Positions 14,725-52,761 of a DNA stretch of 64,000 nucleotides are shown here, in pieces (position 1 is the stretch's first letter; every line of letters begins with the position of its first letter). Position numbers and translations under genes: made by a program. The DNA is from a candidate division TM6 bacterium GW2011_GWF2_37_49 (GTDB taxonomy: Bacteria; Babelota; Babeliae; Babelales; RVW-14), in assembly GCA_000989955.1 (NCBI GenBank), contig LBTE01000006.1, positions 62,001 through 126,000 on the forward strand. The letters are read 5' to 3'. The notes beneath the pieces are model-generated. The model saw only the letters and a program-made list of their open reading frames with translations. It was not told the origin of the DNA and made no database searches.

Positions 14725-15477
14725 TTATTTTTTATTGTTGTTTTGTTTCTTTTGAGCATCTTGCAATTTTTTTAACATCTTTTCATAAGATTCCATTGCC
14801 TCTTTGCTCAACCCAAAGTTGATATCAGAAAAGAAGATAAAGAACTCACTAATTGCGCTTTCCAAATCTTCAATAGTTAAAATATTGTCAACTAGATACT
14901 TAGAAGTAGTATCTACCGCATCCAAAGAAGGAAGTAAATAGCCCTGTCTTGCATGATCCCCTAAACTTTTTGCAAAAAGCACAAGAACAATGCTTCGACT
15001 TTTATCCAAGGCTTCATCCAAAAATTTATCAATTGGGTCAAGAATGCCTTTTATTCTGCTTTGTATAAAATTAATCTCTTCAGCTTTCGTTGCAAAATAA
15101 ACCGATTCTCCTGTTTTTTTGTCTGTCGCAAGAGGCTTCATCTTCTCAATTTCTTCGAGTAGTTTCTTTACGGCTATTGCAGCTTTAAACATCCTAACAA
15201 CAGCGATCGGATTTTCTACAAACACTGCATTCATGAGATCCATGTGCTTGCCAGATATTTTTTTTGGAACATAGCCTTTCGATGAAAAACGAACTTTTCC
15301 ACTTTTAAGATAAGTAACTTCACTCTTTGTTTGAGTGTTCGAATCTTTTGACTGGCCTGCAACTTCTTCGTGCTTACTGATATCATTTACTTCATGCGTA
15401 GAAGACATCGTTTCCGTTGTCGCGACTATTCCACCAAAAAATGTGGTACAAATAAAAACAGCTAACGTCTTTTTCAT
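14725..15477 (-). CDS. Exported protein of unknown function (250 aa)
   Basis: Signal peptide at the N-terminus (MKKTLAVFICTTFFGGIVA), preceded by AAGGAG. A Ser/Thr/Asp-rich linker (about 23-55) leads to a helical domain with short predicted coiled coils and a Lys/Gln/Asn-rich tail (QDAQKKQNNNKK). No family recognised. It lies 22 bases after the outer-membrane barrel gene and 20 bases before recD2, so it is probably co-transcribed with both; a functional link to the barrel protein is more likely than one to recD2. Confidence 0.75.
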   Translation of the reverse strand: MKKTLAVFICTTFFGGIVATTETMSSTHEVNDISKHEEVAGQSKDSNTQTKSEVTYLKSGKVRFSSKGYVPKKISGKHMDLMNAVFVENPIAVVRMFKAAIAVKKLLEEIEKMKPLATDKKTGESVYFATKAEEINFIQSRIKGILDPIDKFLDEALDKSRSIVLVLFAKSLGDHARQGYLLPSLDAVDTTSKYLVDNILTIEDLESAISEFFIFFSDINFGLSKEAMESYEKMLKKLQDAQKKQNNNKK

Positions 15478-16984: not shown

Positions 16985-17247
16985 AAATAAAATTCCAAAA
17001 TTAATAAATTTAAATTTTAAACACACATGAGAAATTTATTGAGCACCAAAGTAAAAATCTGAAAATTGAACATCTTAAGTTAGTACGATATTCGCAAACA
17101 TGTCAATTACAGTCGATTATTGCCAAAATTTTACCATTTTTTTAAAAAATGTGGATTTTAATTTAAAAAAAATATTATTTTACGGATAATACACACGAAA
17201 CAACATATCAATCAAAACAACGTGCAGCAAATAGCTTGCAATAAAAA

Positions 17248-22988: not shown

Positions 22989-24230
22989 CTACCAAACCTC
23001 GTTCATTTCCTTAACTAAGGCTTCTGGCAACTTAATTGATCCATCTTCTTGCTGATAGTTTTCCATCAAAGCGACCATCAATCGCGGCAAGGCCAACGAT
23101 GAAGCATTTAACGTATGCGCCAATTCTGGCTTTGAATCATGTGTTTTGCGATATCTAATTTTTGAGCGACGGGCTTGAAAATCGGTGCAATTACTGCACG
23201 AAGAGACCTCGTAATACTGGTTTTGGCCTGGCAACCAAACTTCGATATCATAAGTTTTTGCAGACGAGAATGAGCAATCTTGAGCAGCAAGCAAACTTAC
23301 ACGATAGTGCAAACCAAGCATTTTTAGAATATCTTCGGCACACCCAACCATCATTTCAAGCTCTGGAAAAGATTTTTCAGGCTCGCAGATTGAATACAGT
23401 TCAACTTTTTCGAACTGATGAATACGAATCAAACCTCTTTCGGTAGAACCGTAAGTTCCAGCCTCACGTCTAAAACACCCAGTCCATGCGGTCATGCGCA
23501 ACGGCAACTCTTCGACTGGCAATATTTTATCAGCATAAATATTGGTTAAGCTGACCTCAGCCGTTGGAATAAGATTTAGCCCATCTTCGGGAAGGCTGTA
23601 ATAATCGCCTTTAAATTTTGGTAAATTTCCAGAATTATAAAGCGCGCCTTCATTGACCAAATATGGCGGAATAATCGGCTCAAAACCTTTTTTAACGTTA
23701 TTTTTTAACATCATTCGAGTGAGCGCATAAATTACCTTGACACCCAAACCTCGATAAAGCGCAAACTGCGCACCAGACATCTTTGCAGCTGTCTCAAAAT
23801 CAAACCACTTGGCTTTTTCGTTTAATTCAACGTGATTTTTGATTGTGAATTTAAAATCAGGCTTCTGGCCAATGATTCTGACAGGCAAGTTGGCTTCCTT
23901 GTTGCCCAGCGGAATATCTTCGGCCGGAATGTTGGGACACGACAGCCACAAAGTTTTATACTCTTGTTCAATTACGCAGAGCTCATCTTCTTTTAATTTA
24001 AGCTCTTTGCCGAGCTCTATACTTTTTTGACGAATTTCAGGAGTTATGCCCTTGGAGCCAGCGGATGCAAGCTCGTTTTTATTTTTACGTAGTCCTTCTA
24101 TTTCTGAATTAATTGATCTGACAAGCCGGTCTAGCTCAAGCAAACGATCAACGTTAAAGGAAGGCTCTTTGCGTAAAATAAGCTCTTTTACCAAATCTGT
24201 ATCAGCACGCAACCGATTTAAATCTATCAT
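22989..24230 (-). CDS. serS: Seryl-tRNA synthetase
   Basis: Class II aminoacyl-tRNA synthetase. The N-terminal long coiled-coil arm (about 25-100) and the catalytic core are present: TAEVSLTN, FRREAGTYGSTERGLIRIHQF (motif 2), ASSLALPRLMVALMENYQ (motif 3). The ATG at 24230 (MIDLNRLRADTD) has GGAG upstream and matches the family N-terminus; the 34 extra codons further upstream are not part of the protein. 413 aa, usual length. Confidence 0.96.
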   Translation of the reverse strand: MIDLNRLRADTDLVKELILRKEPSFNVDRLLELDRLVRSINSEIEGLRKNKNELASAGSKGITPEIRQKSIELGKELKLKEDELCVIEQEYKTLWLSCPNIPAEDIPLGNKEANLPVRIIGQKPDFKFTIKNHVELNEKAKWFDFETAAKMSGAQFALYRGLGVKVIYALTRMMLKNNVKKGFEPIIPPYLVNEGALYNSGNLPKFKGDYYSLPEDGLNLIPTAEVSLTNIYADKILPVEELPLRMTAWTGCFRREAGTYGSTERGLIRIHQFEKVELYSICEPEKSFPELEMMVGCAEDILKMLGLHYRVSLLAAQDCSFSSAKTYDIEVWLPGQNQYYEVSSCSNCTDFQARRSKIRYRKTHDSKPELAHTLNASSLALPRLMVALMENYQQEDGSIKLPEALVKEMNEVW

Positions 24231-24381
24231 GGCATACTCCAAAAATGCGGTTATAAAATTTACAAGCATCACAAGACGCCTACCAATTTTATAACAAAAA
24301 AGTCTTATCCTTGATAACGAAATAAATGGCACAATTAAATGACACTCAAAACCATTAGCCAGAGCCTGGCCAAAAATACGC

Positions 24382-24624: not shown

Positions 24625-26835
24625 TTACGTATTTATATTTTGATAAAAACCTGCTAGTCCTTCAAATGACGAACCTCCGCGCTGTTCAATAAACAAATTG
24701 TCATCGGCTATACCATCACCAAATATTATACCCGTCGAGTAATCTGTCGAATTATCGTTTTTATAAAAACTTCGACCACTTATAATTAGCCGGCCATTTA
24801 TTAATTGCAAGCCTGGCGCCGAAGCTGAAAGAACAGACTCATCCAAAACCATGATTGAGGAATTGTTGGCCATGGTAATCAAATTTGTACTTCCAGAAAT
24901 TGGCTGGTAATTAAACTTCATACCTCGTGAAAAAGAAAGAGTACCATTATCCAAAATATTAATATTTTGACCGGATGCATAATTAAAGGTGTAAGCACCA
25001 ACAACATCGCGCCCATCGCTGGTAAATGTAAGCGGCTTACCTGGCCCAACCAACATCCAATCGCCCAAAACATCTATTCCACCTGTACTGAAAGTAAATG
25101 TATCATCCTGAATCCATTCAACATCTTTAAATATAATTTTGGACGAATTACGTGTGCATCTAATTTTAGCACCAGAAAGACCTTTGAATGTTACGCTTTC
25201 TATGTAAAGAACAGAGTTCTCACCCTCAAGAACAATCTCGCCACATTCATCTAATGTTAAAATGGCACCGCCGCCACGCAGCGCAGTATTACCTCTGAAC
25301 GTCCATCGTTTATCCAGGGTGTCATCAGTCCAAAGTTTAACAGTGGTATTATTACCGAAAACAAGAGATGAATTATCGCCCAAAGATAGATGCTTTGGCG
25401 AAAAATCCCTGAAATAAACATTTTCATAAGTTGCGTGAACATTATCTGTAACAAATAATAAAGGCTGATTTGTTGTGGAAAAACCAATGAATTGCGTATT
25501 GCCGTTAACAGTAATATCGTAATTAAAGTCTTGAATTTCTGGATTCCATTCAGGATATAGATTCATAGGTCTGTCCGGCCACAAGACAGCATATCTTGCC
25601 ATTGCAGTACTTGAACCATAACTGACAAAAGATATTGACTCTATGCGAGGCTTACGAATTGACCCATTATTAATAATTTCGACAAATTGATGCGTAGGAT
25701 CTTGAATAGCAAGCGGCCTAATATTTAATTTATCCTCAAAATCAAGTGGATCATACGTAAGGGCCACTCGATCAACGGTTAATTTGCCCTTAACACCTGT
25801 AATGCCAGAATTTTCCGCAAAATTTAATATCTTATCCTTTGTAAGAATATAGGTATCACCATCAATTATCACATCGCCAGAATTGAAAGTAAAATCGGCA
25901 TTCATTTCTATATCAACATCTGAAAGTCGCAACACTGAACCAACCCCCATAACAAAGTTGCCAGACCCAAGCCCCTTTAATTTAACTCCTGAAAGCCTAA
26001 GAGTTGATCCAGGACTAACAAAAATTGAACCACCTCCAGAGATATCCAAAACATTTCCATTTCCATTGACTTGGCCATCTCCATAAAAAGTCCACGTCCC
26101 TATTAAATACGTAAGACTGTTAAGCTGCATATCAAATGCACTATTCCAAATCATATTTCCGGTCCAATACGCAGTATTTCCGCCAAGAGCAAGCCTACGA
26201 TTATTAAAAACAACTTGACCATCTCCCTGAAAAATAGCATCATCACCTAGACACAAATCATCTTGCAAAAGAATTAATCCACCATTCATAATAACATTGG
26301 AATTCAACGCATTTTGAATAGCAATTGAAAGTAAGCAAGTTTTATCTTGCAAAATAATATCGTTTTTACCAAAAAAAAGAGGTTGACCTCGCAAAAGATG
26401 CCCTCCACTTTTTACATAAATTTTTTGGCGAAATCCTCCCGGATTTGAGATGACATAGTCTAAGCCGGCAGGATCAGTTTGATATCCCAATTCCAAAACA
26501 CCGTAGTGGAGCTCATCAGGATTAATATATTTTCGTAAAGCATCAATATTGGCCTCAGTTCCCTCATATCTCCCACTAAACCAAGAAGTTGATAAATAAC
26601 TACTTATTTTACCTCGTGTAAAATAGATTGGATTACCATTAATTTCAGCCAATTCTTTGCGGTCAATTTGTCCACCATTTACATACATCATTTGAGAATC
26701 TATATCCAAAACAGTATCATCTTCCATCGTAATTTTTGAATCAATACTTCCAAAGATTATGCTTGGACCTACATCAGGATATGCGCATAAATTTGCAAAC
26801 ACTGAAAAAATAGCTAAATACAATAAAAATTTCAT
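24625..26835 (-). CDS. Exported beta-helix surface protein, paralogue 1 (736 aa)
   Basis: Signal peptide MKFLLYLAIFSVFANLCA, AGGAGA before the ATG. The rest is built of short beta-strand rungs rich in Gly, Asn, Asp and Val (LKGLGSGNFV, VDIEMNADFTFNSG), typical of right-handed beta-helices. Shared family blocks: IQNALNSNVIMNGG near 180, LGDDAIFQGDGQV, NGNGNVLDISGGG, LTVDRVALTYD, and a C-terminal module ending …FGDGIADDNLFIEQ. No transmembrane barrel or sorting tail is present, so export would need another route, perhaps the type II system. It lies 17 bases after the shorter paralogue at 26853 and is probably co-transcribed with it. An adhesin-like role is inference. Confidence 0.85.
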   Translation of the reverse strand: MKFLLYLAIFSVFANLCAYPDVGPSIIFGSIDSKITMEDDTVLDIDSQMMYVNGGQIDRKELAEINGNPIYFTRGKISSYLSTSWFSGRYEGTEANIDALRKYINPDELHYGVLELGYQTDPAGLDYVISNPGGFRQKIYVKSGGHLLRGQPLFFGKNDIILQDKTCLLSIAIQNALNSNVIMNGGLILLQDDLCLGDDAIFQGDGQVVFNNRRLALGGNTAYWTGNMIWNSAFDMQLNSLTYLIGTWTFYGDGQVNGNGNVLDISGGGSIFVSPGSTLRLSGVKLKGLGSGNFVMGVGSVLRLSDVDIEMNADFTFNSGDVIIDGDTYILTKDKILNFAENSGITGVKGKLTVDRVALTYDPLDFEDKLNIRPLAIQDPTHQFVEIINNGSIRKPRIESISFVSYGSSTAMARYAVLWPDRPMNLYPEWNPEIQDFNYDITVNGNTQFIGFSTTNQPLLFVTDNVHATYENVYFRDFSPKHLSLGDNSSLVFGNNTTVKLWTDDTLDKRWTFRGNTALRGGGAILTLDECGEIVLEGENSVLYIESVTFKGLSGAKIRCTRNSSKIIFKDVEWIQDDTFTFSTGGIDVLGDWMLVGPGKPLTFTSDGRDVVGAYTFNYASGQNINILDNGTLSFSRGMKFNYQPISGSTNLITMANNSSIMVLDESVLSASAPGLQLINGRLIISGRSFYKNDNSTDYSTGIIFGDGIADDNLFIEQRGGSSFEGLAGFYQNINT

Positions 26836-26852
26836 TACATTCTCCTAGAAAT

Positions 26853-27662
26853 TTAATAACGAACACTGTCAACATTTGCATAAATTAACCTACCGGCAAC
26901 AACATCTAAATTGGCAGATGGAGAAATGTCCATTTTTAAATTTGAAGCCACAGATTTATTTCCAAAAGATAACGCCCACACTTTTTGCTCATTTCCATCG
27001 TTATAAAACTTAACAACATTATCTACAACCAAATGTCCAGATGTAAGCACTAAACCGCAATGCTCACCTTGAGAAATAATACATCCATTAAAAAATAAGT
27101 TCGATGAATTTGACTCCATAACTAAATGATTATTAGCAAGGTCTGATGGAGCATATACAAAAATAAGATGTAAATCGAAAAACAATGTAGAATCACTATT
27201 TATATAAATATCATCATCACTGCTATAATAAAATAGTTTATCAAGGCCTTTTATTTTTACCTCATTTACTATATCTAAACCACCGCCGGCAAGCTCAAAA
27301 TCATCGGCAAGGTTAAAAACAACATCGTTTAGTATTAATTTTTGACCTTCGGCAACTCCAAACATGATGCTGCTGTTACCGCTGTCATACTCAGCAACTC
27401 CTTTGACATTGCAATTTCTTATGGTTAGATATGTTGTATCCGGTCCGTCCACCTTAAAGCAAGCTTCATCCTCAAAAACTATATCATGCCCCATCCCATC
27501 TATCACGGTATTCCAGGTAAAAGTCGTAACAGTAGAAGTGGGAATAATCCAATCATCGCTTAATATTATCTTCTGATGTGGAGTGCTAGCGCTTAAATTG
27601 CCTGCATCAGCCAACGCAATACTCAAAAAAAGTAGTGCATATTTTAATATATTTTTGTTCAT
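26853..27662 (-). CDS. Exported beta-helix surface protein, short paralogue 2 (269 aa)
   Basis: Signal peptide MNKNILKYALLFLSIALADAG, AAGGAAG before the ATG. It corresponds to the C-terminal module of its larger neighbours: NNHLVMESNSSNLFFNGC, then a G-L-V-L-T-S-G-H rung and FGNKSVASNLKMDI, which align with the last 130 residues of the 730- and 686-aa paralogues. The repetitive N-terminal half of those is missing. This may be a true short family member or the product of an internal deletion; the signal peptide argues for a functional gene. Confidence 0.8.
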   Translation of the reverse strand: MNKNILKYALLFLSIALADAGNLSASTPHQKIILSDDWIIPTSTVTTFTWNTVIDGMGHDIVFEDEACFKVDGPDTTYLTIRNCNVKGVAEYDSGNSSIMFGVAEGQKLILNDVVFNLADDFELAGGGLDIVNEVKIKGLDKLFYYSSDDDIYINSDSTLFFDLHLIFVYAPSDLANNHLVMESNSSNLFFNGCIISQGEHCGLVLTSGHLVVDNVVKFYNDGNEQKVWALSFGNKSVASNLKMDISPSANLDVVAGRLIYANVDSVRY

Positions 27663-27692
27663 AAACTTCCTTTCTTAAAAACAAACAAAAAA

Positions 27693-27723
27693 CGGGTGTC
27701 GTAGATAAATTCCACCACACCCG
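27693..27723 (-). terminator. Terminator after the beta-helix gene at 27773
   Basis: Stem CGGGTGT / ACACCCG, followed on the minus strand by TTTTTT. It separates the two two-gene transcription units of the island. Confidence 0.7.
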
Positions 27724-27772
27724 CAAAACTATATCCAAATATCGCTTGTAGTAAATATTTTAATTAATATTA

Positions 27773-29950
27773 TTAAAAACTAAGAGTTTCTTCCGTATTT
27801 ATATCAAGTATTCCTTCCATAACTTCAAGTGATCCACCAGGCATGATGTTAACAAATAAGTCACTGCTTGGTAAATTTATATTTCCAAACGAAATAGCTT
27901 CAGAAATAGAGGATCCTGAACCTAAAATATAATTTTTACCTTCAACAAATACAGAACCATTTATCAATCGCATGCCAGTAGAACTTGATATCAAAGCACA
28001 TCCATTTAGATGAAGTTCAGATGAAAAATCTTCCATCATAATCAAATCTCTGTTTGCAATTATCGGCTCATAAACAAATATGGATATAGGGGAGTAAGAT
28101 TGTGTTATAGATATAGGATACATTGATTCAAATATTAATCTTGAATCCTTACGAATCATTGACGGCTGATTTGTTAAATACTCAAATATACCTCTGAATT
28201 TAACATTTTGATCAAAAACCAATGATCCTGAAGTAAAGCTAAAAGGGCTGTCTGTAGAATAATCTTCATGTAATGTATTTAATCTATCATTTTTAAGCGT
28301 AATAGTAGCATTACCAACACATCGCAAATTATAATCTGCAAGCCCCTGAATCGAGGTATTTTGAATGGTTAGATTTCCTCCTTGCATTATTTGAATATTT
28401 TTTAAACCAAGATCAAGTGTGTTGCCAAAGGCATTTATTGTTGCCGTTCCCTCAAAAGCCCATGGCATTGTCATTGTTTGACCATCGGTCAACTCAACTA
28501 CAACCCCATCACCAAAAATCAAAGAGGCCCCAGCTCCAAGTTGTACTGCAGTATCCTTAAAATTTCTTAGAACGACATTCCTAAGCACAACATTGCTTGC
28601 ATCAGCAATATTTAAGGTACCAGCATTGTCATTAGCAAAATTAATAAAATGTCCGCCGCCATTAAAGACACTGCTACTTTGAATATCAAGAACATGGTCA
28701 TTACTTAAAAAATAGTCATACGACATTGTATACGTTAATGCATTTACTCTTATATTATTTGGACCGTGATCAATTGTTTGCATTTGTTGATCCAACCAAA
28801 CAATTGCATTTGAGTTGTTTCTTATCAGATCAGCTTCAGAACCACCGATATAAGACATAATTCTTCCACCGTTAAGATACTTAATATAAATTTGGGTTGG
28901 GTCATCGGCAGGAACAGGCTTTATATTTTTTTGATCGTCAAAGGTTAATGTATCATAAAACAATGTTTTTTCATCAACCGTCAAAAATGCTGATCCCGCA
29001 AAGGTTAGGATATTATTGCCTAAAATGCAAGATGCAGGACCATCAACATAAACCTGTCCAATCGTTAATGTATAATTGGAATCAAAACCAAGCGAAGTCG
29101 AAGATAATTTAATTTTTGAATTTTGACCTTCAAAAATTAAATTATCTGAATTAAGCCCTTTAATGTTTAAATTTGCAAGATAAAGAGTTGTATTATCTTT
29201 AATAATTAATTGTCCTCCGTGAGTAAGATCAAGCAAATTTCCACGACCCAACATATGAATATCGTTGGCAAAAGTCCACTGCCCATACAAAGTCAATCTA
29301 CTGTTAACAACAATGTCTGCATCAACCCATTGAACACTTGACGTAATAATTAAATCTCGACCACCAAGTATTGCAGATTTACCATTTCCAAGAATTTTAC
29401 CAACCCCAACCAACTGATTTCCATCTCCAAATTTCAAATCATTTTTTAAATTAGCGGTTGAACTATTTAGACGAATATTTGAATTAACAGTACTTTGAAC
29501 ACCAAGGCTGGCCGTTGCTCCTGAAGCTACCGACACAGGATTACTTACATCTGGAATTCCCTCCATAGAAGCTCCATCACTCAACTCAACTGATGCGTTA
29601 ACAGATCCAGATTGCCCTCTCCATGATGAATTAGCAACGGTTACCGTTGCTGTTGCAGGACTGTAAGAACCTGTAAAAGTTGTTGATGAACCATTGTTAA
29701 GAGCGATACCTCCCTGAACAAATCCAATCGGCAATCCCTCAGCAATCGCACCAGTATTTACGTTAATTTTCGCCTTACCAGCATTCATCGTTGAAGAGCT
29801 ATTTTTAAGACTAGAACCAGCATTCACAGTAATCTGAGACCCTGTTCCTGAATTAATTCGTGGAGCATTCCCGCCACGCTGTGTTGCAGCCAAATCAAGC
29901 CACACGCAGACGAGTAAAAAAAGGCTTTTATAAAAAATTTTATAGGACAT
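27773..29950 (-). CDS. Exported beta-helix surface protein, paralogue 3 (725 aa)
   Basis: An ATG at 29965 has no ribosome-binding site; the ATG five codons later (29950, MSYKIFYKSLFLLVCVWL) has AAGGATATTA upstream and gives a cleaner signal peptide, so it is preferred. Residues 25-150 are a Ser/Thr/Ala/Gly-rich region unlike its paralogues (GSSLKNSSSTMNAGKAK), reminiscent of passenger N-termini. From about 165 the family pattern appears: VNSNIRLNSS, FGDGNQLVGVGKI, GNLLDLTHGGQ, YIKYLNGG, then the C-terminal module (FVYEPIIANRDLIMMED). No barrel. It lies 31 bases after the paralogue at 29982. Confidence 0.85.
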   Translation of the reverse strand: MSYKIFYKSLFLLVCVWLDLAATQRGGNAPRINSGTGSQITVNAGSSLKNSSSTMNAGKAKINVNTGAIAEGLPIGFVQGGIALNNGSSTTFTGSYSPATATVTVANSSWRGQSGSVNASVELSDGASMEGIPDVSNPVSVASGATASLGVQSTVNSNIRLNSSTANLKNDLKFGDGNQLVGVGKILGNGKSAILGGRDLIITSSVQWVDADIVVNSRLTLYGQWTFANDIHMLGRGNLLDLTHGGQLIIKDNTTLYLANLNIKGLNSDNLIFEGQNSKIKLSSTSLGFDSNYTLTIGQVYVDGPASCILGNNILTFAGSAFLTVDEKTLFYDTLTFDDQKNIKPVPADDPTQIYIKYLNGGRIMSYIGGSEADLIRNNSNAIVWLDQQMQTIDHGPNNIRVNALTYTMSYDYFLSNDHVLDIQSSSVFNGGGHFINFANDNAGTLNIADASNVVLRNVVLRNFKDTAVQLGAGASLIFGDGVVVELTDGQTMTMPWAFEGTATINAFGNTLDLGLKNIQIMQGGNLTIQNTSIQGLADYNLRCVGNATITLKNDRLNTLHEDYSTDSPFSFTSGSLVFDQNVKFRGIFEYLTNQPSMIRKDSRLIFESMYPISITQSYSPISIFVYEPIIANRDLIMMEDFSSELHLNGCALISSSTGMRLINGSVFVEGKNYILGSGSSISEAISFGNINLPSSDLFVNIMPGGSLEVMEGILDINTEETLSF

Positions 29951-29981
29951 TAATATCCTTTTCATTTTTAAAAATTATTCA

Positions 29982-32042
29982 CTATTGCAATAAAACATTG
30001 TTATAGTTCACAGCACCAGACAAAACATACATATTTGCACTGGAGATCAAATTAATGATGCAGTCATTATAACCATTCACGCCATCGCCAAATTCTATAC
30101 TCTCAGAAGTCACATTGCTCGGGCTTCCCGCAACGAATGCATCATTTTCTACTTGAAATGTGCCACCAAGTAGGCGCATACCTGTTGTTGAAGAAACCAA
30201 AGTACCACCGTTCAATGCAAAAATAGATCTATCATCTTTAAATATAATCAAATCTCTATCAGCAACAGGAGGGTTATAGTAAAATGTGGCATTGGCACCA
30301 ATAGTCATTGTTGCTCGCTCCCAAATAATACTTGACTTGTCTGTGCTGTAAATAAATGAACCCGTACCAACAACATCAAGGCTATCAATAACCTCAAAAT
30401 GCCCCTTCGTAAGAGTAAAATTATCATCAAGATAAAGCGTAACATTCTGAAATGTCATAGTACTTGAATCATCCCAACCAGCCAGCTGACTTCCTGAAAT
30501 GCCGTACAAAACGGCGTTTTCAAACTTAATTGATGAATGTAACTCAATTCCGCCACCATCATCAAATGTCAAAATTTTTCCCTGTCCATCAATTATAGTA
30601 TCACCTCTAAACGTGTAGGTCGTATTAACTGACTGAGAGTCGTTTAATACAATTTTTGACTTATTATCAAAAATTATTTTTGATTCCAATCCCAAATTTA
30701 AATAATTAAAATTAAAATCTTGTAAAAGTACATTTTTCAAAACCAACGTTTTACCAGGCTGAACAATCAATAATGGATTTTGCGATTTCGCAAAGACCAT
30801 CGCATTTGTACTTCCATCAAAAGTTAAGTCGTTTGCTATAATCAGTTCTTTTGTTGGCGCTACGTTCAGATTCTCTGATATTCGAATTGTTTGAAAAGGT
30901 GTAGGAGGATTAAGCACCAGAGGGCCAACTTGCACGCCTATAATTCTTCGAATTAAGCCACCATTCAACAATGCAACATGTTTGCTGTTTGGATCTAAAT
31001 CACGTGTTGGCTGAATATTATTACTATCAAGAACCGACAATGTTTCATAGTTAAGAACAACACCATCAACGGTTAAAGAGCTTACAGAATCAAAATTTAT
31101 TATATTGCCCTTTGTAACAATTGCAGATCCGCCGTCAACATAAATTCCACCTGAGGTAAATGTGTAATCAGAATTCATTTCAATCTCGACATTGGAAAAT
31201 CGAATCTGAGAATTTGGTCTGTCAAACTCAAATTTACCTGAACCAAAGCCTTTCAGCTTAACATTGTTGATGTAAAGAGGGCCATCACCACGAACCCTAA
31301 TTTTACCAGAACTAAAATCAAGAATACTACCATTGCCAGTCAATGAGCTTACACCACTAAAAGTCCAACGCCCATCCAAAATAACATTATTATTGAGCTG
31401 AACCACTGGCGTATCACTCCAGGTAATGTTGCCACCTGGCCAAGACAATGGCTTTGCGCCAAGCAAAACTTTATGACCAAAGCACCTAATTTGCCCTGAA
31501 CTGGTAAGTAAGATGTCATCCCCTAATCTTAAATCATTTTCTAACACCAGTACGCCATTATTCAATACAATATTTGTATTCAACGCATTTTGGATTGCTA
31601 CAGTAAGAGTTGTGTGAAAATCTTTTAAAGTTACGCCTGAGGAGTCTGTCCAAATTGGTTGCCCTTCCAAGCGATTATTTTCGCCCTCTACCCAAATTTT
31701 GTCAGATATAATTCCAGCATTTGCTTTAAATGATTTATCACCATTCAAAATTATTGGATAAGAAGCATCAAAGTCGTACAAAGCTGTTAATAAAATTTCT
31801 AAATCACCAGATTCGTAAGTACCGCCGTTAAAAATTACAGGATTGCCATGAATTATGGCCAATCTATCCTTAACTAAGCTTCCCTGCCTTACTTGAAAGT
31901 TTGATGACTCAATGTTCAATGCAGAACTATTTGCAATTTGCAAAGTTGAATCTTTGCTCCAAAGATTTAAACCTGCTTGCAAAAAAGAGCTATAAAAAAT
32001 CGAACCGACAACAAATGTCGATAATATAATTTTTTTTACCAT
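29982..32042 (-). CDS. Exported beta-helix surface protein, paralogue 4 (686 aa)
   Basis: Signal peptide MVKKIILSTFVVGSIFYSSFLQAG, AAGGGA before the ATG. Closest to paralogue 1: IQNALNTNIVLNNGVLVLEN, LTGNGSILDFSSG, VKLKGFGSGKF, VEIEMNSDYTFTSGG, LTVDGVVLNYETLS, then LNGGLIRR and a C-terminal module (PPVADRDLIIFKDDR). The regular spacing of these blocks suggests rungs of one long beta-helix. No anchor is visible. First gene of its transcription unit; repeat copy E lies upstream. Confidence 0.85.
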   Translation of the reverse strand: MVKKIILSTFVVGSIFYSSFLQAGLNLWSKDSTLQIANSSALNIESSNFQVRQGSLVKDRLAIIHGNPVIFNGGTYESGDLEILLTALYDFDASYPIILNGDKSFKANAGIISDKIWVEGENNRLEGQPIWTDSSGVTLKDFHTTLTVAIQNALNTNIVLNNGVLVLENDLRLGDDILLTSSGQIRCFGHKVLLGAKPLSWPGGNITWSDTPVVQLNNNVILDGRWTFSGVSSLTGNGSILDFSSGKIRVRGDGPLYINNVKLKGFGSGKFEFDRPNSQIRFSNVEIEMNSDYTFTSGGIYVDGGSAIVTKGNIINFDSVSSLTVDGVVLNYETLSVLDSNNIQPTRDLDPNSKHVALLNGGLIRRIIGVQVGPLVLNPPTPFQTIRISENLNVAPTKELIIANDLTFDGSTNAMVFAKSQNPLLIVQPGKTLVLKNVLLQDFNFNYLNLGLESKIIFDNKSKIVLNDSQSVNTTYTFRGDTIIDGQGKILTFDDGGGIELHSSIKFENAVLYGISGSQLAGWDDSSTMTFQNVTLYLDDNFTLTKGHFEVIDSLDVVGTGSFIYSTDKSSIIWERATMTIGANATFYYNPPVADRDLIIFKDDRSIFALNGGTLVSSTTGMRLLGGTFQVENDAFVAGSPSNVTSESIEFGDGVNGYNDCIINLISSANMYVLSGAVNYNNVLLQ

Positions 32043-32173
32043 TCTTCCCTTACTTTTTATTTAAAATTTTAAACATTTCAAAACTACGATCTAATGGTTC
32101 ACCTAAAAAACTGATTTATCCGATTATGCCACTATCACTGAAGCGATGATTAATAGGGTCTTTTAAAATTGAA

Positions 32174-32342
32174 TGGCACTTTTTGCAATTTTTGATTTTT
32201 TTTCTTTAAACCGTGCATCAGATCGCAATAGGCAGGCCGGCCTGTAAAATTTATCATTTTTATTGTAAGGGCTTTGCACTCGACAGTTTAAAAGGTCATA
32301 GTCAATGTATAGCCCTACACATCACGATTTTCATCAAAACCT
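32174..32342 (+). repeat. Dispersed intergenic repeat, copy E
   Basis: GGCACTTTTTGCAATTTTT, CAGATCGCAATAGGCAGGCCGG, TGTAAAATTTATCATTTTTATTG, then CATAGTCAATGTATA, in family order. It lies between the start of paralogue 4 and the terminator of the next gene. Confidence 0.88.
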
Positions 32343-32381
32343 TTTAAAATATTTTTTTTAAATGACACAATTAAATACAAA

Positions 32382-32410
32382 AATAGGGACTCCAATTTGG
32401 AGTCCCTATT
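32382..32410 (-). terminator. Terminator after the outer-membrane protein at 32421
   Basis: Perfect 12-bp stem AATAGGGACTCC / GGAGTCCCTATT; on the minus strand TTTTT follows, 10 bases past the stop codon. Confidence 0.8.
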
Positions 32411-32420
32411 AAAAACGAAA

Positions 32421-34364
32421 CTAGAAACTATGAGCAAATGATATACCAATATCAAATGATTTTGGTACATTTATGCCAGCAAATGTATATATCATTCCAG
32501 CCTTCATTCTTGTGCTAGAATCAAATTGGAGGCTGTATTCAAGGCCTACGCGATGCTCAACCTGTTTTGTATTGTCTTCAAGCATATCAATTTTGTACGC
32601 ATCCCTATTAACTTGTCGATATGAATCTTCAAATTTTACACGGAGATTGTAGAAAATATCCATAAAGCCGCGACGTGATAAGAATTTTTCAAAAACGTTA
32701 CCCAGTCTTGCTGTAATTTCTGGACCTTTTTCAAATTTTACCGAAACAGGCTTATCACCAAAACCACGTACAGCTGTATCCCACTCAGCAAATGCAATAC
32801 CTCTATATATAAATCTATCTGCAAGAGACATTAAATCCAATTCAAGTACGGTTCCAGATGAAACATCAGGCCCAGACTCAACAAAGTTAGGAACGCGTTT
32901 GTTAACGTGCGCAGGAATATTAAAGCCTGCTTGCAAAAATAGATGTGGGTTTATGTAAGGTTTATATTTTAATAAAAAAGAAATGAATGCAGCAACTTCC
33001 GTACATCCACCATTGCCAATTTCAGGAGCCCACAACTTATGAGTTCCAGCTTTACGACCTGTAGGTAAAACAAATTTAAGTCCAGCAACAATCTTTTCAA
33101 CCCACTTGGTTGTAACTTCAACATTACCAAAAAGCGTAATATCACCAAGCCCTGATGCGCTACCGCCAAGATGATCTATGCCCTTGGCTCGGAATATTCG
33201 CCTTAAAGCCTCTTTATAATCAAGTGATGCAAATTCGCCCATATTTGTATTATTATAAGAATCCGCCTCAGAATAATCCCCTAAATCAGTTGGGAAATCC
33301 ATATTAAGTTGCAAATGATTTTTCATAAACATCATAGGAATTTGAATGCCAACACTGATGTCGTCCCTGAGAACGTGGCGCATAAAATCAAGTGATAAGC
33401 CATATTGCTCAGTTCTTCCATTAAATTTGATTTCTTGGTCTCCCCAATACTGAAGTAATTGATTTACAGGCGAGAACACGGATGGATTATGAAATCCAAC
33501 CTTTCCTTCTTCTAAAAGTTTTGAGGCAAGAACTATATCATGTAGATAGATTGGCTTTTCTCCAAAAAATAAAGTCGTCAAATCCCTGCTAGCACCTTCA
33601 GAATCATATGCCTCAGTTGCATAGTGATAAAATGCTGTGGCATTTATAAGAGCCTTGTCCTTGTAAAACCAATTTGTAACTGGCCATGCAGGAAGCATGT
33701 AAAGATCGCTATATTTACCATTTTTATAATCGGATTCAACAGATGAAGCCCTAACAGTTTTCCAGTTTTGAGCTAATTTTAAATTTTCGGCTTTTTCCGC
33801 ATCAATTCGAACAAGTTTTGCAGAACTTTCTTTTTGCTCATTCAACAATGCAATGTGGTGAGCTTCTTTTTTTTGTTGTTTTTTTAGTCTGTTATGTTCT
33901 TTTTTTGACTTTGACTTATTTTCTTCTTCAAATTTTTTATTTTTTTTATTTTCAGCTTTATTTAGTTTTTCTAATCTGCTTTTTTCCTTACGAGCTTTTT
34001 TGTTCTCTGCTCGCTGCTCATTTTTGATTTCACGTTTTACAGCACGATGCTCTTTTTTAAGGTTACGCTCCTCTTTTTTATCACTACCATTTTTTTTAAC
34101 TTTATCCTTTTTTGTCGATTTACTCTTTTTTTCGTGCTTAGCCTTTTTCTCAGGCTTGGCCTCTTTTTTTGCTAATTTTTCCTGCTTACGCTGTTCTCTT
34201 TCCAATTTTCGCTGTTCACGTTTACGCTTTCGTTCCAATTTTTTTATTTCGTTAGAGGCTGATTTAGTATTAGATTTTGCATCACAAACATCATCATCAC
34301 CTGCATAACAACCAGTAAATCCCGCTGAAACAGCTAAGCACAATATCCATAAAATTTTCTTCAT
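32421..34364 (-). CDS. Outer-membrane barrel protein with a long Lys/Glu-rich N-terminal domain (647 aa)
   Basis: Signal sequence MKKILWILCLAVSAGFTGC with a borderline lipobox (FTGC). Residues about 35-180 are almost entirely Lys, Glu, Arg, Asn and Gln in helical repeats (KREQRKLEREQRKQEK), a single charged helix or coiled coil. From about 200 the protein becomes beta-rich with aromatic girdle residues and ends in a barrel signature (DIGISFAHSF, C-terminal Phe). A barrel carrying a roughly 150-residue charged rod is unusual; the rod could span the periplasm and bind peptidoglycan, or nucleic acid or host material. The gene follows paralogue 5 by 64 bases, in the same direction. Confidence 0.82.
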   Translation of the reverse strand: MKKILWILCLAVSAGFTGCYAGDDDVCDAKSNTKSASNEIKKLERKRKREQRKLEREQRKQEKLAKKEAKPEKKAKHEKKSKSTKKDKVKKNGSDKKEERNLKKEHRAVKREIKNEQRAENKKARKEKSRLEKLNKAENKKNKKFEEENKSKSKKEHNRLKKQQKKEAHHIALLNEQKESSAKLVRIDAEKAENLKLAQNWKTVRASSVESDYKNGKYSDLYMLPAWPVTNWFYKDKALINATAFYHYATEAYDSEGASRDLTTLFFGEKPIYLHDIVLASKLLEEGKVGFHNPSVFSPVNQLLQYWGDQEIKFNGRTEQYGLSLDFMRHVLRDDISVGIQIPMMFMKNHLQLNMDFPTDLGDYSEADSYNNTNMGEFASLDYKEALRRIFRAKGIDHLGGSASGLGDITLFGNVEVTTKWVEKIVAGLKFVLPTGRKAGTHKLWAPEIGNGGCTEVAAFISFLLKYKPYINPHLFLQAGFNIPAHVNKRVPNFVESGPDVSSGTVLELDLMSLADRFIYRGIAFAEWDTAVRGFGDKPVSVKFEKGPEITARLGNVFEKFLSRRGFMDIFYNLRVKFEDSYRQVNRDAYKIDMLEDNTKQVEHRVGLEYSLQFDSSTRMKAGMIYTFAGINVPKSFDIGISFAHSF

Positions 34365-34428
34365 AAAACTCCCTCTATCCTTACAAATTACAACACTAAC
34401 ATCTCTTAAAAAATATAACGTCTACGCT

Positions 34429-37400
34429 CTAATTCCTCTTACCTTCAGCTGTAATGGTAAAAGCTTTTTCATTGGCATTTTTTCCATAAATTGTACCAGA
34501 ATAATCATCGCTTATAACGGTATCACCAGCTAAAAGATCCACTTTAATCTTGTCTTTTGTTATAACCGCCCCAATACCATCTAAAGACTCAAGCAACGTA
34601 CTAGTCTTGAGAATTGGAGGTGTCTTTCTAGCAAGTAATAACGCCAGTTTATCAAAAGTCATATGCTCAACATCTGTAAATAAGTCAGATTCCAACCCAA
34701 AGACCTTGCCTAAAAAACATTTTGTTGGATTTACATCGATATATTCAACAAATCCTCCACCTGAAATATTAGCGCAAAAACCTCCCCAACTAAAGTCGTA
34801 AATCTGATTGAATGTACTCAGCATACGATTTTGAGCAACGACAAAACGTCCATTATCTTTAATTGTCAAAGTTCCATTATTTCTGAAAGATAGGTCAGAA
34901 ACAAATCCTCTTGAAAGCTGTCCATTTAAAGCATTAATCTCAAATACACCATTTGCTCCAACAATTAAAGATCCACCTCCTTCAAAATTCAGAGCTGTGG
35001 TTAATTTCTGCATTGATATGGTTGTATAACCATCAATATAAGGATTTTCTAAACAAATTTGAGAATTTCCAGATACTTTAATAGTTATATTATCGCGTTC
35101 TGACAATCCAATTGTAAGACTGCTAGGAACACTAGGCTTTATCGATGCAGTATTTTGAATAATAATGTTGCCGATGCCATCTATTCTCGAATTTGCACCA
35201 CTAGCAAAATCAAGCGTGGCACCATCACTCAAAATAAAATTAGACTGATTAATAATAATTTTATTTTGAGTATCTTCGGTGGCAAGTAATTTTATTACGA
35301 CTCCATCAGATAAGATTACCTTACCAGACCCACTAAAAATCAAAGTGCTATTTTCTGGTATTGTTAAAACGGTTCCTGGCTCAAAAATCACCACCGCTTC
35401 GCTACCGGTAGGCATAAATTTAAATTCTAACGATGAATTTTGATCCAAAAATAAATTCCCATCAAAAGACATCTGTCTTTGCACATTAATAATATTGCCT
35501 CTGCCTATTACATTTACGCTATGATTGGATGGATCAAATGAAACATTCTGTAAACCCTGAATTATTTGAGAGCCCTCTTTCAAATATACACTAAATGGCA
35601 ATGCTGAATCTACAATCAAATTATTCAAATTCGAACCTCGTCGTAACTCTGTTGATCCGGAATATACATCTGTAGAATTCACGTATTGACCGGCATATTG
35701 ATGACCATACACGTTAGGCTCAACTATTCGATGGCGAAAGCTTTTAATTACTCCCTTAGTCATTTGATTGTTTTCGTTCAAAGAATTAAATCTTTCATAT
35801 CTCAACAGTTCCAGACGATGTTTTTTAGGGTCTTTTGGAATAGTTGTAAAAAACGCATCCGAATACGCATCATTTAGTGCTTGGCAACAGCGTATTTTTT
35901 GACCTAATTCATCTAAATTTATTTGGGCATCCTGCTCATATGCAATTTGACGCAAAATATCTTTTTTACCTGCAGCATCAATTTTTGATTTTTTTGACAA
36001 ACTAAAACGAGCATTGGATGCATCAATTTGAAGACCATTAATTTGAGTACCATCGTCTAAAACTCTTGTAGATAATTGCAAAATCGGATTGGTTAATATA
36101 TCTAATTCTTCATATATCAAGTGAGCATTTATGTCTAACTGAATCGAGTTTAAATCCTGTAAATCAAGAATTACATATCTATCATCAAATATTAAACGTG
36201 ATGCACCATTATTTGGTCCACCAACAATAATTCCAGGTCCACCAGATAAATTAATACGCGGATATTTTTCCAACCCAAGTCCATCAATCAATGCAAAAGC
36301 TATGTGTAATTCGTTAATAGATTTATCACCAAAAACAATTAATCCAGACAACGTTAATGCATTAACCAACAAAGTAATGTTGTTTTCAGCTCCAGATGCT
36401 TTGAAATTTAAATTCGTGTCAACATCTATATCTACGCCGGATTCGCCACTCAAATGAATTAAGCTATTCGAATTATTTTTTATATGACTAATCCCGTCCA
36501 AAACAATATTCTCTAGGGTAAGAGTACCATCATTTATGTTCAAAATTACCATATTTGGATTAGTTGAATTAAATAGAGTAATGTATCTAACACCATCCAA
36601 TCCAATCCAAGTGAAATTTACACCAGGTAAAACATTTATCAGAGGTGAACTAAAAGTAACGTCTTCCGCAAAGCTCCACGTTACATTTTCCCCAATATTT
36701 ATCTGTCCACCCGGATAAATTAAAAATGTGTTTTGATTGATATTCGAGATGGTAATATTTGTTAAGTTAACGATTACACCAGGCTGAACAATAAATTGAG
36801 GAATGCCTGAATTTGGGAAATTAATTGTAGAGCCGCCACCATCCAAAGTCATATCACCGGTAATATTAATTGATTTATCCGAAGGAACATCAATAAAATA
36901 ATTCATTGTAACATCAACATGAACATTTCCACTTAAAAGTATAGCTGCGGCTGGATCTATAAAGCCGCCACCACCTGTAGTTGATGTAACACTTAAACTT
37001 ATAATGCCATCATTTAAATATGTTAAAGTTCCATCTGCAATATTTGCAGCAACATTGGCAACATTATATCCATTAATATCATAAACGGCTCTGGATGAAT
37101 TTAAATGCCCAGCCAAAGCAGTTAACCCTTTGCTAAGCGTATCAAGCCACAGGGTTGCTCCATCAACTGTTAAAGTTGCAATAGAATTTATGTTCCAATC
37201 AAATTCACCAAGAACAAAAGAAGATGCACCTTCAACAATAATATTGCCAATAGTTGTTGTGTATGCGGCACTTAAACAAGTATCAACTTTTGACATATAA
37301 AGATTAGATGTCTCTGACGCAAAAATTATTTGGCCAGCAGAATTTCCAAGTCCCTTAATAACTAGGTCTTCGATATATAAATTGGTGTTTGGACCTACGA

Positions 37401-38145
37401 CAATTTTTCCACCATCGCTCAAATCCAATATTGTGCCATTTCCAATCAAGTTGCAATCACCGTAAAAAAACCAGTATCCATCCAACTTCACACTTCCGGT
37501 TAACACCAGGCTGGTTGCATGCTCGAAACCAAGCGACTCCGACCAGGGAGATGTGTAAAAACCTCCAAAAATCAACTGTCTGTTATTTAAATCTATTCTG
37601 CCAGGCCCAACAATCTGAACATCATCTCCAAGACTTAAATCATTGATTAATCTAATGACTCCGCCGTTCATATCGATATTTTGAGATAATGCATTTTGCA
37701 TATCAATTAATGCTTCAGAGGAATAATTCAAAAGGCGTATTGGCAAAACAAATGTAGGCTGCCCAGATATAACGTTATTTAGACCACTAATTAAAACACC
37801 ATAAAAAACATTTCCAGGTTCACCTTTCAAAACACCATCGCCAGCAAATTGTAAAACCTCAGCGGCATTTGGGTCAAATGTACCATTCAATATCGCTTCA
37901 GCCCCATCCTGCTCCAAAACGCCATTAACAAAAGAAAATCTCTGGCCAGTTATCAGTCCACCCAATTCTTGAGAAATAGTCCCATCGACGTAAAAATTGC
38001 TGCCTCTTACATTCAGTCTGGCACCAGAAAAAACATTAATCCTAGAATCTCGACTTCCAAAACTAACAGACGCATTAACAAAATCGATATCACTAAACAA
38101 AATAGCCAAACAAAGCAATGAAAGCCGCAACAAAAAACAGATCAT
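34429..38145 (-). CDS. Giant exported beta-helix surface protein, paralogue 5 (1238 aa)
   Basis: Signal peptide MICFLLRLSLLCLAILFSDIDF, GAGGAG upstream. The first 350 residues align with paralogues 1 and 4 (ALSQNIDMNGGVIRLIND, LGDDVQIVGPGRI, IGNGTILDLSDGG, LTVDGATLWLDTLS). Residues about 350-700 add more rungs; a helical, charged insert lies near 725-810 (KKDILRQIAYEQDAQ, QALNDAYSDAFF), then beta-helix resumes to the end. The C-terminal module of the other paralogues is absent, and so is a barrel. It is the largest member and the first gene of the unit with the Lys-rich barrel protein, which might display it. That pairing is inference. Confidence 0.85.
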   Translation of the reverse strand: MICFLLRLSLLCLAILFSDIDFVNASVSFGSRDSRINVFSGARLNVRGSNFYVDGTISQELGGLITGQRFSFVNGVLEQDGAEAILNGTFDPNAAEVLQFAGDGVLKGEPGNVFYGVLISGLNNVISGQPTFVLPIRLLNYSSEALIDMQNALSQNIDMNGGVIRLINDLSLGDDVQIVGPGRIDLNNRQLIFGGFYTSPWSESLGFEHATSLVLTGSVKLDGYWFFYGDCNLIGNGTILDLSDGGKIVVGPNTNLYIEDLVIKGLGNSAGQIIFASETSNLYMSKVDTCLSAAYTTTIGNIIVEGASSFVLGEFDWNINSIATLTVDGATLWLDTLSKGLTALAGHLNSSRAVYDINGYNVANVAANIADGTLTYLNDGIISLSVTSTTGGGGFIDPAAAILLSGNVHVDVTMNYFIDVPSDKSINITGDMTLDGGGSTINFPNSGIPQFIVQPGVIVNLTNITISNINQNTFLIYPGGQINIGENVTWSFAEDVTFSSPLINVLPGVNFTWIGLDGVRYITLFNSTNPNMVILNINDGTLTLENIVLDGISHIKNNSNSLIHLSGESGVDIDVDTNLNFKASGAENNITLLVNALTLSGLIVFGDKSINELHIAFALIDGLGLEKYPRINLSGGPGIIVGGPNNGASRLIFDDRYVILDLQDLNSIQLDINAHLIYEELDILTNPILQLSTRVLDDGTQINGLQIDASNARFSLSKKSKIDAAGKKDILRQIAYEQDAQINLDELGQKIRCCQALNDAYSDAFFTTIPKDPKKHRLELLRYERFNSLNENNQMTKGVIKSFRHRIVEPNVYGHQYAGQYVNSTDVYSGSTELRRGSNLNNLIVDSALPFSVYLKEGSQIIQGLQNVSFDPSNHSVNVIGRGNIINVQRQMSFDGNLFLDQNSSLEFKFMPTGSEAVVIFEPGTVLTIPENSTLIFSGSGKVILSDGVVIKLLATEDTQNKIIINQSNFILSDGATLDFASGANSRIDGIGNIIIQNTASIKPSVPSSLTIGLSERDNITIKVSGNSQICLENPYIDGYTTISMQKLTTALNFEGGGSLIVGANGVFEINALNGQLSRGFVSDLSFRNNGTLTIKDNGRFVVAQNRMLSTFNQIYDFSWGGFCANISGGGFVEYIDVNPTKCFLGKVFGLESDLFTDVEHMTFDKLALLLARKTPPILKTSTLLESLDGIGAVITKDKIKVDLLAGDTVISDDYSGTIYGKNANEKAFTITAEGKRN

Positions 38146-38231: not shown

Positions 38232-39197
38232 TCATATTAAGCTACTTATTGACCTTATGCTTTCTTTTATTTTAATTGCGGAATCGATAAAAAGGCCTTT
38301 TTCTTTTGCATCTAATTCTATGCTTAGCCTTTGACAGACACCATTTGCCCCTATAATTGTTGGCACACTAATGCAAACGTCTTTAATACCGTAAACTTCT
38401 TCTTCTATTAATGTAGATAGCGTAAAAACCCTTGACTGTCCTTGAATGATTGCTCTAACAAGTTTTGAAACAGCAGCTGAAACAGCATAATAAGTTGCAC
38501 CTTTGCGCTTTATAACTTCATAAACAGAATCTCTAGTTCGTGTATAAATTTTATCCATTATTTCCGTGGTAAAAGTTGGAAAGTTGTTTAACGGAATTCC
38601 AGCAATATTTGCCTTACTCCACCAAACAAATTCAGAATCTCCATGCTCTCCAAGAACGTAAGCTGTAATATCTTTCGGACTTACTTTTAAATGCTGCCCA
38701 ATTAAATATCTCAACCGCGAGGTATCAAGCACTGTGCCAGTACCAAAAACCCTGCATGAAGGCATACCGGAAAGCTTTAATGTAACATACGTAAGTACAT
38801 CAAGAGGATTAGTCACTATTAACAAAATACAATCAGAATTGCATTTCACAATTTTCGGAATAACAGATTTAAAAATTTTTACATTTTCACTTAAAAGATT
38901 CACTCGTGGTTCACCAACTTTTTGAGCAAAGCCTGCACAAACAACAACAATTGATGCTCCTTTAACAAGATCAAATGAATCGCCTGCTTCAACAGAAACT
39001 GATCGCGTAAACTGCATACAATGGCGCAAGTCATACGCTTCACCAGTAGCCTTTTCTTTGTCGATATCTATTAAAACAATTTCAGATGCTACACCTTCAA
39101 GCATCATTGTGTAGGCAATTGTACTGCCCACAAAACCAGCACCTATTATTGCAATCTTAGCTGATGGAGTAATGGCCTTGGTGTAGCAAACAGACAT
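38232..39197 (-). CDS. ldh: L-lactate dehydrogenase
   Basis: LDH/MDH-family NAD-dependent enzyme. NAD-binding loop GAGFVGSTIA, then the substrate loop CAGFAQKVGEPR, where Gln at the discriminating position points to lactate rather than malate dehydrogenase (which has Arg). The catalytic His is in GEHGDSE, and DTSRLRYLIG holds the conserved Arg. The ATG at 39197 follows AAAGGAG; a TTG one codon upstream is less likely. It would regenerate NAD from pyruvate in a fermentative or parasitic metabolism. About 321 aa, usual length. Confidence 0.93.
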   Translation of the reverse strand: MSVCYTKAITPSAKIAIIGAGFVGSTIAYTMMLEGVASEIVLIDIDKEKATGEAYDLRHCMQFTRSVSVEAGDSFDLVKGASIVVVCAGFAQKVGEPRVNLLSENVKIFKSVIPKIVKCNSDCILLIVTNPLDVLTYVTLKLSGMPSCRVFGTGTVLDTSRLRYLIGQHLKVSPKDITAYVLGEHGDSEFVWWSKANIAGIPLNNFPTFTTEIMDKIYTRTRDSVYEVIKRKGATYYAVSAAVSKLVRAIIQGQSRVFTLSTLIEEEVYGIKDVCISVPTIIGANGVCQRLSIELDAKEKGLFIDSAIKIKESIRSISSLI

Positions 39198-39419
39198 CAA
39201 TGCTCCTTTTTTCCTTTATTCAACAACGTCATTACTTAAATTAGTGGTATGATAAAAAACTCATATCTGCAATATCAAGATTTTTAATTAAAAAATAAAA
39301 TTACGCAACAAACTCAATAATTCAAGCTCAAAATTATAAAAAGTTAAATTTAACTTGATAACAAAATCGTGTAAATTTTAAGCAGATTTCGATTGTTTTT
39401 TATTAAACACTGAAAAGCT

Positions 39420-40317: not shown

Positions 40318-41740
40318 GTAACTATTCAGGTGCCCCTTGTTTAAAAATAGGGATTTCCAAAAAATAAAGTTGTGGTAATATCTGGGTAGAAAGGAGATTT
40401 GAGTGGACTGGAGAGATGAGTTAATAGAATCGCAAAAAAAAATTATCGAGTCACAAAATAAAATCATAGCTGAACTAAAAGCGGAAATAGTTGTACTGAA
40501 AGAGCAAGTAGCTGAGCTTGAGCGTCGACTAGGGTTAAATAGTGAAAATAGTGGTAAGCCGCCTTCAAGTGATGGGCTTGGCAAGCCTCACAGAACACAA
40601 AGTCTGCGTGAAAAAAGTGGTAAAAAACCTGACCGACTTAACAAAAGTGCCGGTTTCGAGCATCTGCAAGAGGCAGGTTTTTGATATTCCTCAAATCAAG
40701 GCCCCTATCGTTGTTGAACATCAATTTGAGATTAAGCGTTGTCCGGGGTGTTGCAAAAAAGTGGAGACTCAAATAACTGGGGTCTCCAACACACCTGTTC
40801 AGTACGGACCAAATACCAAAGCCGTTGTATTATATCTTTATGCGTCCAACTACATTCCGGATGATCGTACATCTAAAATAATGCAAGACCTCTTCGGTAT
40901 GAGTCTTTCGGCTGCCACAGTTAAAAATATGGTGGAAGAATGCGCTTACAAAGTCTATCCAGTGACTAAAAAAATTGAAGCCAAGTTAATAAACGCACCA
41001 GTCAAACATGTGGATGAATCGGGTATGCGCATAGATGGAAAAATTAAGTGGGCACACGCGCTTTGCAACGACAAATTAACTCACTATCGGCTCCCTCAAA
41101 AACGAAGCGATATCCAGCAAAATTTAACAGGCGTTGTCGTTCATGATTATTTTAAACCTTATTATTCCAGGCTCAAAGATGCTCAGCATGCAGTGTATAA
41201 CGCCCACATTTTACGTGAATTAAAAGCCGTTTCAGAAATAGATAAAGAGCCATGGGCCGAAGATATGGCCAATGCATTGTTAAGCGGATATAAAAAGTCA
41301 CAACAAAATAGAGACGAAATATCGGCCAAATGGCTTACAAGATTTAAAAATTTATATGACAAAATCATTGATACTGGAATTGAATTTCATGAAAAATTAG
41401 GCTTTTTAAAGCAGCAAAAGACTGGTCGCTTCAAGCGCAGACCGGGGCATAATTTGTTACTCCGATTACAAAACAATTCTGAAGATGTTTTGCGTTTTTT
41501 ACATGATCCAAATGTTCCTTTTACAAACAATTGTGCGGAACAAGCCTTGCGCATGATCAAGGTTAAACAAAAAATATCTGGCTGTTTTCGAACCTATCGA
41601 TGGGCTATACATTTTTTGGAAATTCGAGCATATTTGGCCTCTGCACAAAAACAAGGCTACAATGTTTTTGATGCTCTATCTTCCGTGTTTCAAACCGGGC
41701 CTATCAACCTTGTTTTGGACTAGGCACCTGAATAGTTACA
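40318..41740 (+). mobile_element. IS66-family insertion sequence (ISBst12-like), decayed
   Basis: Bounded by perfect 17-bp terminal inverted repeats, GTAACTATTCAGGTGCC at 40318-40334 and its complement at 41724-41740, starting with the GTAA typical of IS66. Length 1423 bp with only a TnpC-type transposase, as in the ISBst12 subgroup. The eight bases on either side (AATAAACC and AATTTTTA) do not match, so no target duplication is visible. Confidence 0.9.
40403..41723 (+). pseudogene. tnpC: IS66 TnpC transposase, frameshifted and internally deleted
   Basis: The N-terminal part (GTG at 40403 with AAGGAG, 93 codons) has the leucine-zipper-like helix and the NSENSGKPPSSDG block of IS66 transposases. 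The rest is in the +1 frame from about 40640 to 41723, with KRQVFDIPQI, CPGC, HVDESGMRIDGK (first catalytic Asp), VVVHDYFKPY (second Asp) and NNCAEQALRMIKVKQKISG (Glu). The usual GGQxGHxG zinc-proximal region between GKKP and RQVFDIP is missing, roughly 45 codons. A deletion with a frame change is the simplest explanation, so the transposase is probably inactive. Confidence 0.88.
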
Positions 41741-52394: not shown

Positions 52395-52565
52395 GACTCT
52401 TATATCCAAGCATTTATAATTTTTTTGATCTCAAAAGGCATACAGTTATCAAACACAAAAGTTCTAATGTAGTCCAGCGTAGTACACCACTCAGTACACC
52501 CCCCATCAATCAGCCACTTTTGACTACATTCAAAACCCATATCTGTTCGAGTATTTCAAATTCAA

Positions 52566-52730
52566 CGACACTTTTCGTTATTTCCATTTTTTTTGCATGA
52601 CAACCACGATCTGATCGCTGCCTGCCGGCGGGGTCTAAAAATTTATAAATTTCTTGAAATAATTGATTTCAACGGCTATTACAAGTAATATAGTCGATGT
52701 ATAACAGTAAAAATAACAGGTTTGACGCTG
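52566..52730 (+). repeat. Dispersed intergenic repeat, copy G
   Basis: Contains ACACTTTTCG, CGATCTGATCGCTGCCTGCC, GGCGGGGTCTAAAAATTTAT, AATTTCTTGAAATAATTG and TATAGTCGATGTATAA. About 88 percent identical to copy F over 100 bases. It ends about 30 bases before the Fic gene. The part of this gap before it (52395-52565) holds only a weak 46-codon minus-strand frame. Confidence 0.92.
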
Positions 52731-52761
52731 TTACATTTTGATAAAAATAAGGATTAAGTTA

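Follow-up and report, generated by a model that had tools for sequence, protein, structure and literature searches.

A Dependentiae-specific pairing of beta-helix exoprotein and FapF-like outer-membrane barrel suggests a two-gene surface system with satellite paralogues

Dependentiae parasitize protists; they are widespread and for the most part uncultured, and their host-contact machinery is largely unknown. Several systems described in other bacteria resemble the locus reported here. In the type IX pair SprB/SprF, a large adhesin gene is followed by that of an outer-membrane protein and the adhesin carries a conserved C-terminal domain, an arrangement that the present locus shares. In two-partner secretion (type Vb, as in FHA/FhaC and HxuA/HxuB), a dedicated outer-membrane barrel is encoded beside a large exoprotein of beta-helix fold whose N-terminal module is conserved. 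Chlamydiae, which live inside cells, carry multiple copies of beta-helix surface proteins, the Pmp proteins. FapF, from the Pseudomonas Fap amyloid secretion system, is a trimer that transports polypeptides through plugged 12-strand barrels, and it has PTG motifs and a coiled coil in the periplasm (PMC5557850). Published accounts of Dependentiae genomes emphasize ankyrin and other repeat proteins and leave surface antigens unnamed (PMC4378268, PMC6561590).

Here we analysed a 64,000-nucleotide stretch of the genome of candidate division TM6 bacterium GW2011_GWF2_37_49 (the window), for which an earlier note had reported five paralogous beta-helix proteins with no barrel and no visible anchor. 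Open reading frames define a minus-strand island at 24625-38145 with six genes in the order E1238, OMP647, D686, C730, B269 and A736; five of these encode the reported proteins of 736, 269, 730, 686 and 1238 amino acids. As claimed, these five lack a terminal barrel, but the island also contains OMP647 (32421..34364), a predicted outer-membrane beta-barrel with a long Lys-rich N-terminal helix. Its position as the conserved partner of E1238 across loci overturns the view that the island is without a visible anchor.

E1238 (34429..38145), a large exoprotein, is the first gene of an E-OMP bicistron, as judged from its open reading frame, its paralogy and gene order across loci. It consists of a signal peptide, an N-module common to A736, C730 and D686 (residues 148-375; 37021..37704), a variable middle and a C-terminal EC domain (residues 821-1238; 34432..35685) that marks barrel-paired exoproteins. 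Directly 3' of the OMP647 stop lies a terminator-like hairpin (32382..32410) with a 13-bp perfect stem and a T-rich tail, which fits a bicistron separate from the four satellite genes beyond it. Three of these encode beta-helix proteins with two units each, namely D686 (29982..32042), C730 (27773..29965) and A736 (24625..26835), and B269 (26853..27662) has a single C-unit. An Rfam search for RNA elements returned no match.

The island is flanked, also on the minus strand, by L-lactate dehydrogenase (ldh; 38232..39200), which is a conserved neighbour upstream of E in five other genomes (G059, G063, G065, G054 and G055), and by serS downstream (22989..24332), found near an E-OMP pair in one other genome too. 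Because genomes of other genera show the same ldh-E-OMP arrangement, and the GC content of the island (0.353) matches that of the window (0.360), we dropped a mobile-island reading in favour of an old locus. Elsewhere in the window, a further OMP-like protein of 508 amino acids ending in Phe (15500-17026) adjoins a secreted protein of 250 amino acids (14725-15477). At 49636-53520, AAA-ATPase-like proteins of the PF09820 type are encoded in tandem, one of them bearing a PDDEXK_9 nuclease domain, and a Fic protein follows; two open reading frames look like transposases on sequence reading only (40542-41723 and 48195-49117, the second apparently split).

Four of the island proteins (A, C, D and E) have N-terminal motifs in a common order (IQNALN, LGDD, NGNG, LD, LTVD and NGG) at 35-41% identity, and A, B, C and D have a C-terminal module in common. 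Their paralogy is far beyond chance, with blastp E values down to 4e-90. The same unit underlies both the N- and the C-module (hhalign 98.5%, E=3e-15), a relationship the earlier note had missed. A simple hydropathy test found a hydrophobic N-terminal stretch in 5/5 island proteins, in line with the signal peptides attributed to them, and signal-like N-termini in 91/96 family open reading frames versus 34/64 controls, which supports the export signals proposed for the family.

The family is also expanded within this genome, as proposed, with four more members at three further loci of its 1.49 Mb; in two of these proteins a WD40/lactonase-type propeller is inserted close to where the C-unit ends. 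Adjacent propeller-bearing beta-helix proteins of 1335 and 1079 amino acids lie on contig C1 (locus L009, 5527-9534 and 9710-12949). Contig C7 encodes two secreted proteins with a common C-terminal region (locus L010, 9039-10637 and 10787-11575), the first of which has many TNADTSATTTWANYAS-type repeats; the two lie beside family member F512. Across 16 array regions, genes lie mostly on one strand, proteins carry up to five units at a spacing of ~412 residues (the largest has 2077 amino acids), and adjacent paralogues reach 81% identity.

No Pfam model was passed at its cut-off by the window's family proteins, and matches of 35 family units to Pfam were weak. Of 101 Dependentiae genomes, 38 matched a 35-member profile of the family, against a single borderline match (E=4e-4) among 273 genomes from outside the phylum, bearing out the proposed restriction to the lineage; the named records matched are Dependentiae/TM6 plus one MAG titled "bacterium". 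The N-module profile alone gave no match in a first scan of the whole genome collection, and the diversity of the full family defeated pattern seeding. A search for viral relatives of the C-unit found none. We found neither the family nor the E-OMP pair described in the open-access literature searched, Dependentiae papers included, so the label "undescribed" holds there.

Structure prediction agreed with the beta-helix fold that the motifs had suggested. The AlphaFold2 model of D686 (28-sequence alignment; mean pLDDT 88.6, pTM 0.58) is an all-beta ladder that ends in beta-helix-like strands and has no C-terminal barrel. Its best fold matches in the PDB are beta-helices (PL6 alginate lyases, Ag43, HxuA, EspC, Fap2 and EtpA), none below E=0.001 and with low TM-scores, which supports a predicted beta-helix as the fold class and assigns no specific family.

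The AlphaFold2 model of OMP647 (pLDDT 81, pTM 0.70) combines a long helical segment (residues 100-214; 33723..34067), presumably periplasmic, with a C-terminal beta-barrel (residues 238-647; 32424..33653) of ~12 long strands, as counted from the model's secondary structure. The barrel contains a PTG at 434-436, nearly invariant in position among homologues, and a terminal Phe; the model also has conserved helices at 263-307, which may act as a plug. In a Foldseek search of the PDB, the first 20 places went to FapF or a COG4313 channel (E 1e-13 to 4e-10), with FadL and autotransporter barrels ranking behind them (8e-8 at best). The 12-strand FapF fold was thus recovered at E=1e-13, with TM-scores normalised by target of 0.70-0.79 against FapF-fold structures and an identity over the match of ~10% or less.

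OMP647 therefore resembles FapF in barrel fold, N-terminal helical extension and PTG motif, and in both cases the gene of the outer-membrane channel sits with those of known or presumed clients, FapF exporting a polypeptide. Strands 1 and 2 of OMP647, however, are separated by a segment that is rich in helices and unlike the FapF plug, and its presumed clients are long beta-helix proteins, where those of FapF are FapC-type amyloid. In several homologues the helical extension is short, at ~40-60 residues ahead of the barrel. A Pfam scan of 38 OMP647 homologues detected no POTRA, ShlB or Omp85 signature, and no match to the PorP_SprF family, which sets the pair apart from SprB/SprF.

The EC domain (~420 residues) is present in 29-30 of the 101 Dependentiae genomes, against 0 of 273 outside the phylum. 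We dropped the idea that it is merely a further helix unit, as the two profiles match weakly over 43 columns, and a conserved CC motif preceding it proved not to be general. E homologues in the set inspected range from 879 to 3079 amino acids, and the middles of the longest contain 14-residue heptad-like or 11-residue NSNALLYL-like repeats, with a propeller-like stretch in one long protein. By their sequence, the long homologues with coiled-coil-like middles look like head-stalk-base fibres. The middle of the window's E1238 has no repeats.

To what extent do E and its barrel travel together? A strong OMP647 homologue lies downstream at 38 of 43 EC-domain loci, on the same strand in all 38, with 23 bp (nearest) to 3.5 kb (farthest) between profile matches; four of the five remaining loci sit at or near contig ends. 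Across genomes, EC domain and OMP647 co-occur in 28 of the 32 and 29 that have them (Fisher p=1.4e-19); in four genomes a barrel was detected and no EC domain, and a few EC loci lack a nearby barrel. Tree distances of the two correlate (Mantel r=0.81; 2000 permutations reach at most 0.33), and the true pairing ranks 8th of 1536 within-genome paralogue swaps. E and OMP647 are inherited together as a pair. Because shared phylogeny and linkage were not removed, and agreeing trees are also expected from co-inheritance as a linked unit, these tests speak to joint inheritance and not to contact.

A second version of the pair extends this pattern. Distant OMP647 relatives of 570-780 amino acids each follow an exoprotein of 1314-1998 amino acids in 20 of 20 loci examined. 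By profile, the second-version exoprotein is present in ~53-55 of 101 genomes and its barrel in 53, and the barrel lies downstream on the same strand at 49 of 54 exoprotein loci. Profile comparison shows homology between the two versions for both the barrels (99.3%, E=9e-21) and the exoprotein C-terminal regions (96%, E=2e-9). In 57 of 101 Dependentiae genomes at least one of the two pairs is complete; the window's genome has the first version only. One second-version exoprotein (G075, contig C7, 30997-35844) has six TGA and three TAA codons within its match, pointing to a pseudogene, sequencing error or recoding.

The earlier note had read the divergent middles as expected of surface proteins under variation; high divergence marks E and not the satellites. 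E is the most divergent protein of the locus (40-52% identity in congeneric genomes), whereas A-D type satellites (62-70%) show no extra divergence relative to flanking genes (56-67%). Phase variation was discarded as a source, given no simple repeat tract >8 nt in the island. The recombination between copies that the note wished to see checked found no backing, in that long identical DNA tracts are absent among the array paralogues tested; the longest identical run there is 38 nt, and recent gene conversion was rejected.

We put at about 0.6 the probability that the locus is a Dependentiae-specific two-gene surface system with satellites, in which a FapF-like barrel serves a beta-helix surface fibre, E. 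E1238, with its Sec signal, beta-helix head, variable middle and EC domain, would be made from the bicistron with OMP647, whose FapF/COG4313-type barrel, preceded by a presumably periplasmic helical extension, is predicted to insert into the outer membrane. There OMP647 would act as a dedicated export channel for E, as its docking base or as both, probably via the EC domain. Satellites A-D, built of the same units and lacking EC, may go to the periplasm or surface and would most likely attach to E or sit next to it. The fibre-like look of the long homologues makes adhesion to the protist host, or some other interaction with it, a likely role of E fibres. More tentatively, and at somewhat worse than even odds, the pair may represent an ancestral Dependentiae two-partner export and display system, in which a non-Omp85, FapF-type barrel handles both export and anchoring of giant fibres, beta-helix or stalked, via EC and expanding satellite arrays decorate the surface.

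Export of E and the satellites by the type II system, a route which the earlier note had drawn from neighbouring genes, is unlikely and still deserves weight; OMP647 would then only anchor E at the surface. The type II system is the sole secretion system detected in Babela massiliensis (PMC4378268), and this genome has secretin, GspC-like and GspF genes. The secretin (from 61855) and GspF (1-963), however, each lie ~24 kb from the island, and no GspD homologue was found in the stretches of ~5-10 kb covered around the genes at the other family loci, so we dropped the neighbourhood as evidence; a dedicated FapF-type channel would also make type II export unnecessary for E, a point that does not extend to the satellites. 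We are more doubtful still that OMP647 is an ordinary COG4313/FadL-like uptake channel linked to E through a co-expressed surface locus. The COG4313 channel 4rl8 and FadL are among its PDB matches, PF13557 matches weakly in 2 of 38 homologues, and distant relatives occur in 89 of 101 genomes; a PF13557 search of its own genome gave no signal, but neither did control genomes. As FapF relatives include small-molecule channels (COG4313), the fold alone does not imply export. What weighs against simple uptake is the strict adjacency of E and OMP647, their matching trees and the recurrence of the arrangement in a second homologous pair.

That the beta-helix proteins are secreted polysaccharide-acting, lyase-like enzymes or host-directed effectors instead of structural or adhesive proteins appears improbable. 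PL6 alginate lyases are among the top fold matches of D686 (E ~1e-3) and sequence profiles weakly match the pectate-lyase-fold protein Jun a 1, but such fold matches are general to beta-helices and not significant, no lyase family exceeds its Pfam cut-off, and tandem units and stalk repeats suit structural roles. Least credible, and very improbable indeed, is a known type V or Pmp system, despite the two-gene layout and beta-helix exoprotein. As in type Vb, exoprotein and barrel are encoded together, OMP647 being the putative transporter; yet the fold search returned a FapF-type barrel and not FhaC, E's conserved domain also lies at the C-terminus, and no TpsA N-terminal TPS domain matched by Pfam in the five proteins or 35 family units. 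The lack of POTRA in OMP647 argues against classical two-partner secretion (features in PMC5422565). Type Va is disfavoured by the missing C-terminal barrel on the island exoproteins (Pfam; D686 model), a feature that also separates them from Pmp proteins, as does the near absence of Pmp repeats, the FxxN/GGA type giving one borderline match in A736 (15.1 bits, cut-off 15).

A two-gene surface system thus remains our preferred reading, and it makes the pair a strong candidate for how Dependentiae dress their surface. If FapF-type channels do serve large beta-helix proteins, as these data suggest, the known scope of protein export across the outer membrane would grow. Present in more than half of Dependentiae genomes, the exoprotein-barrel pair offers a concrete, testable candidate for host binding.
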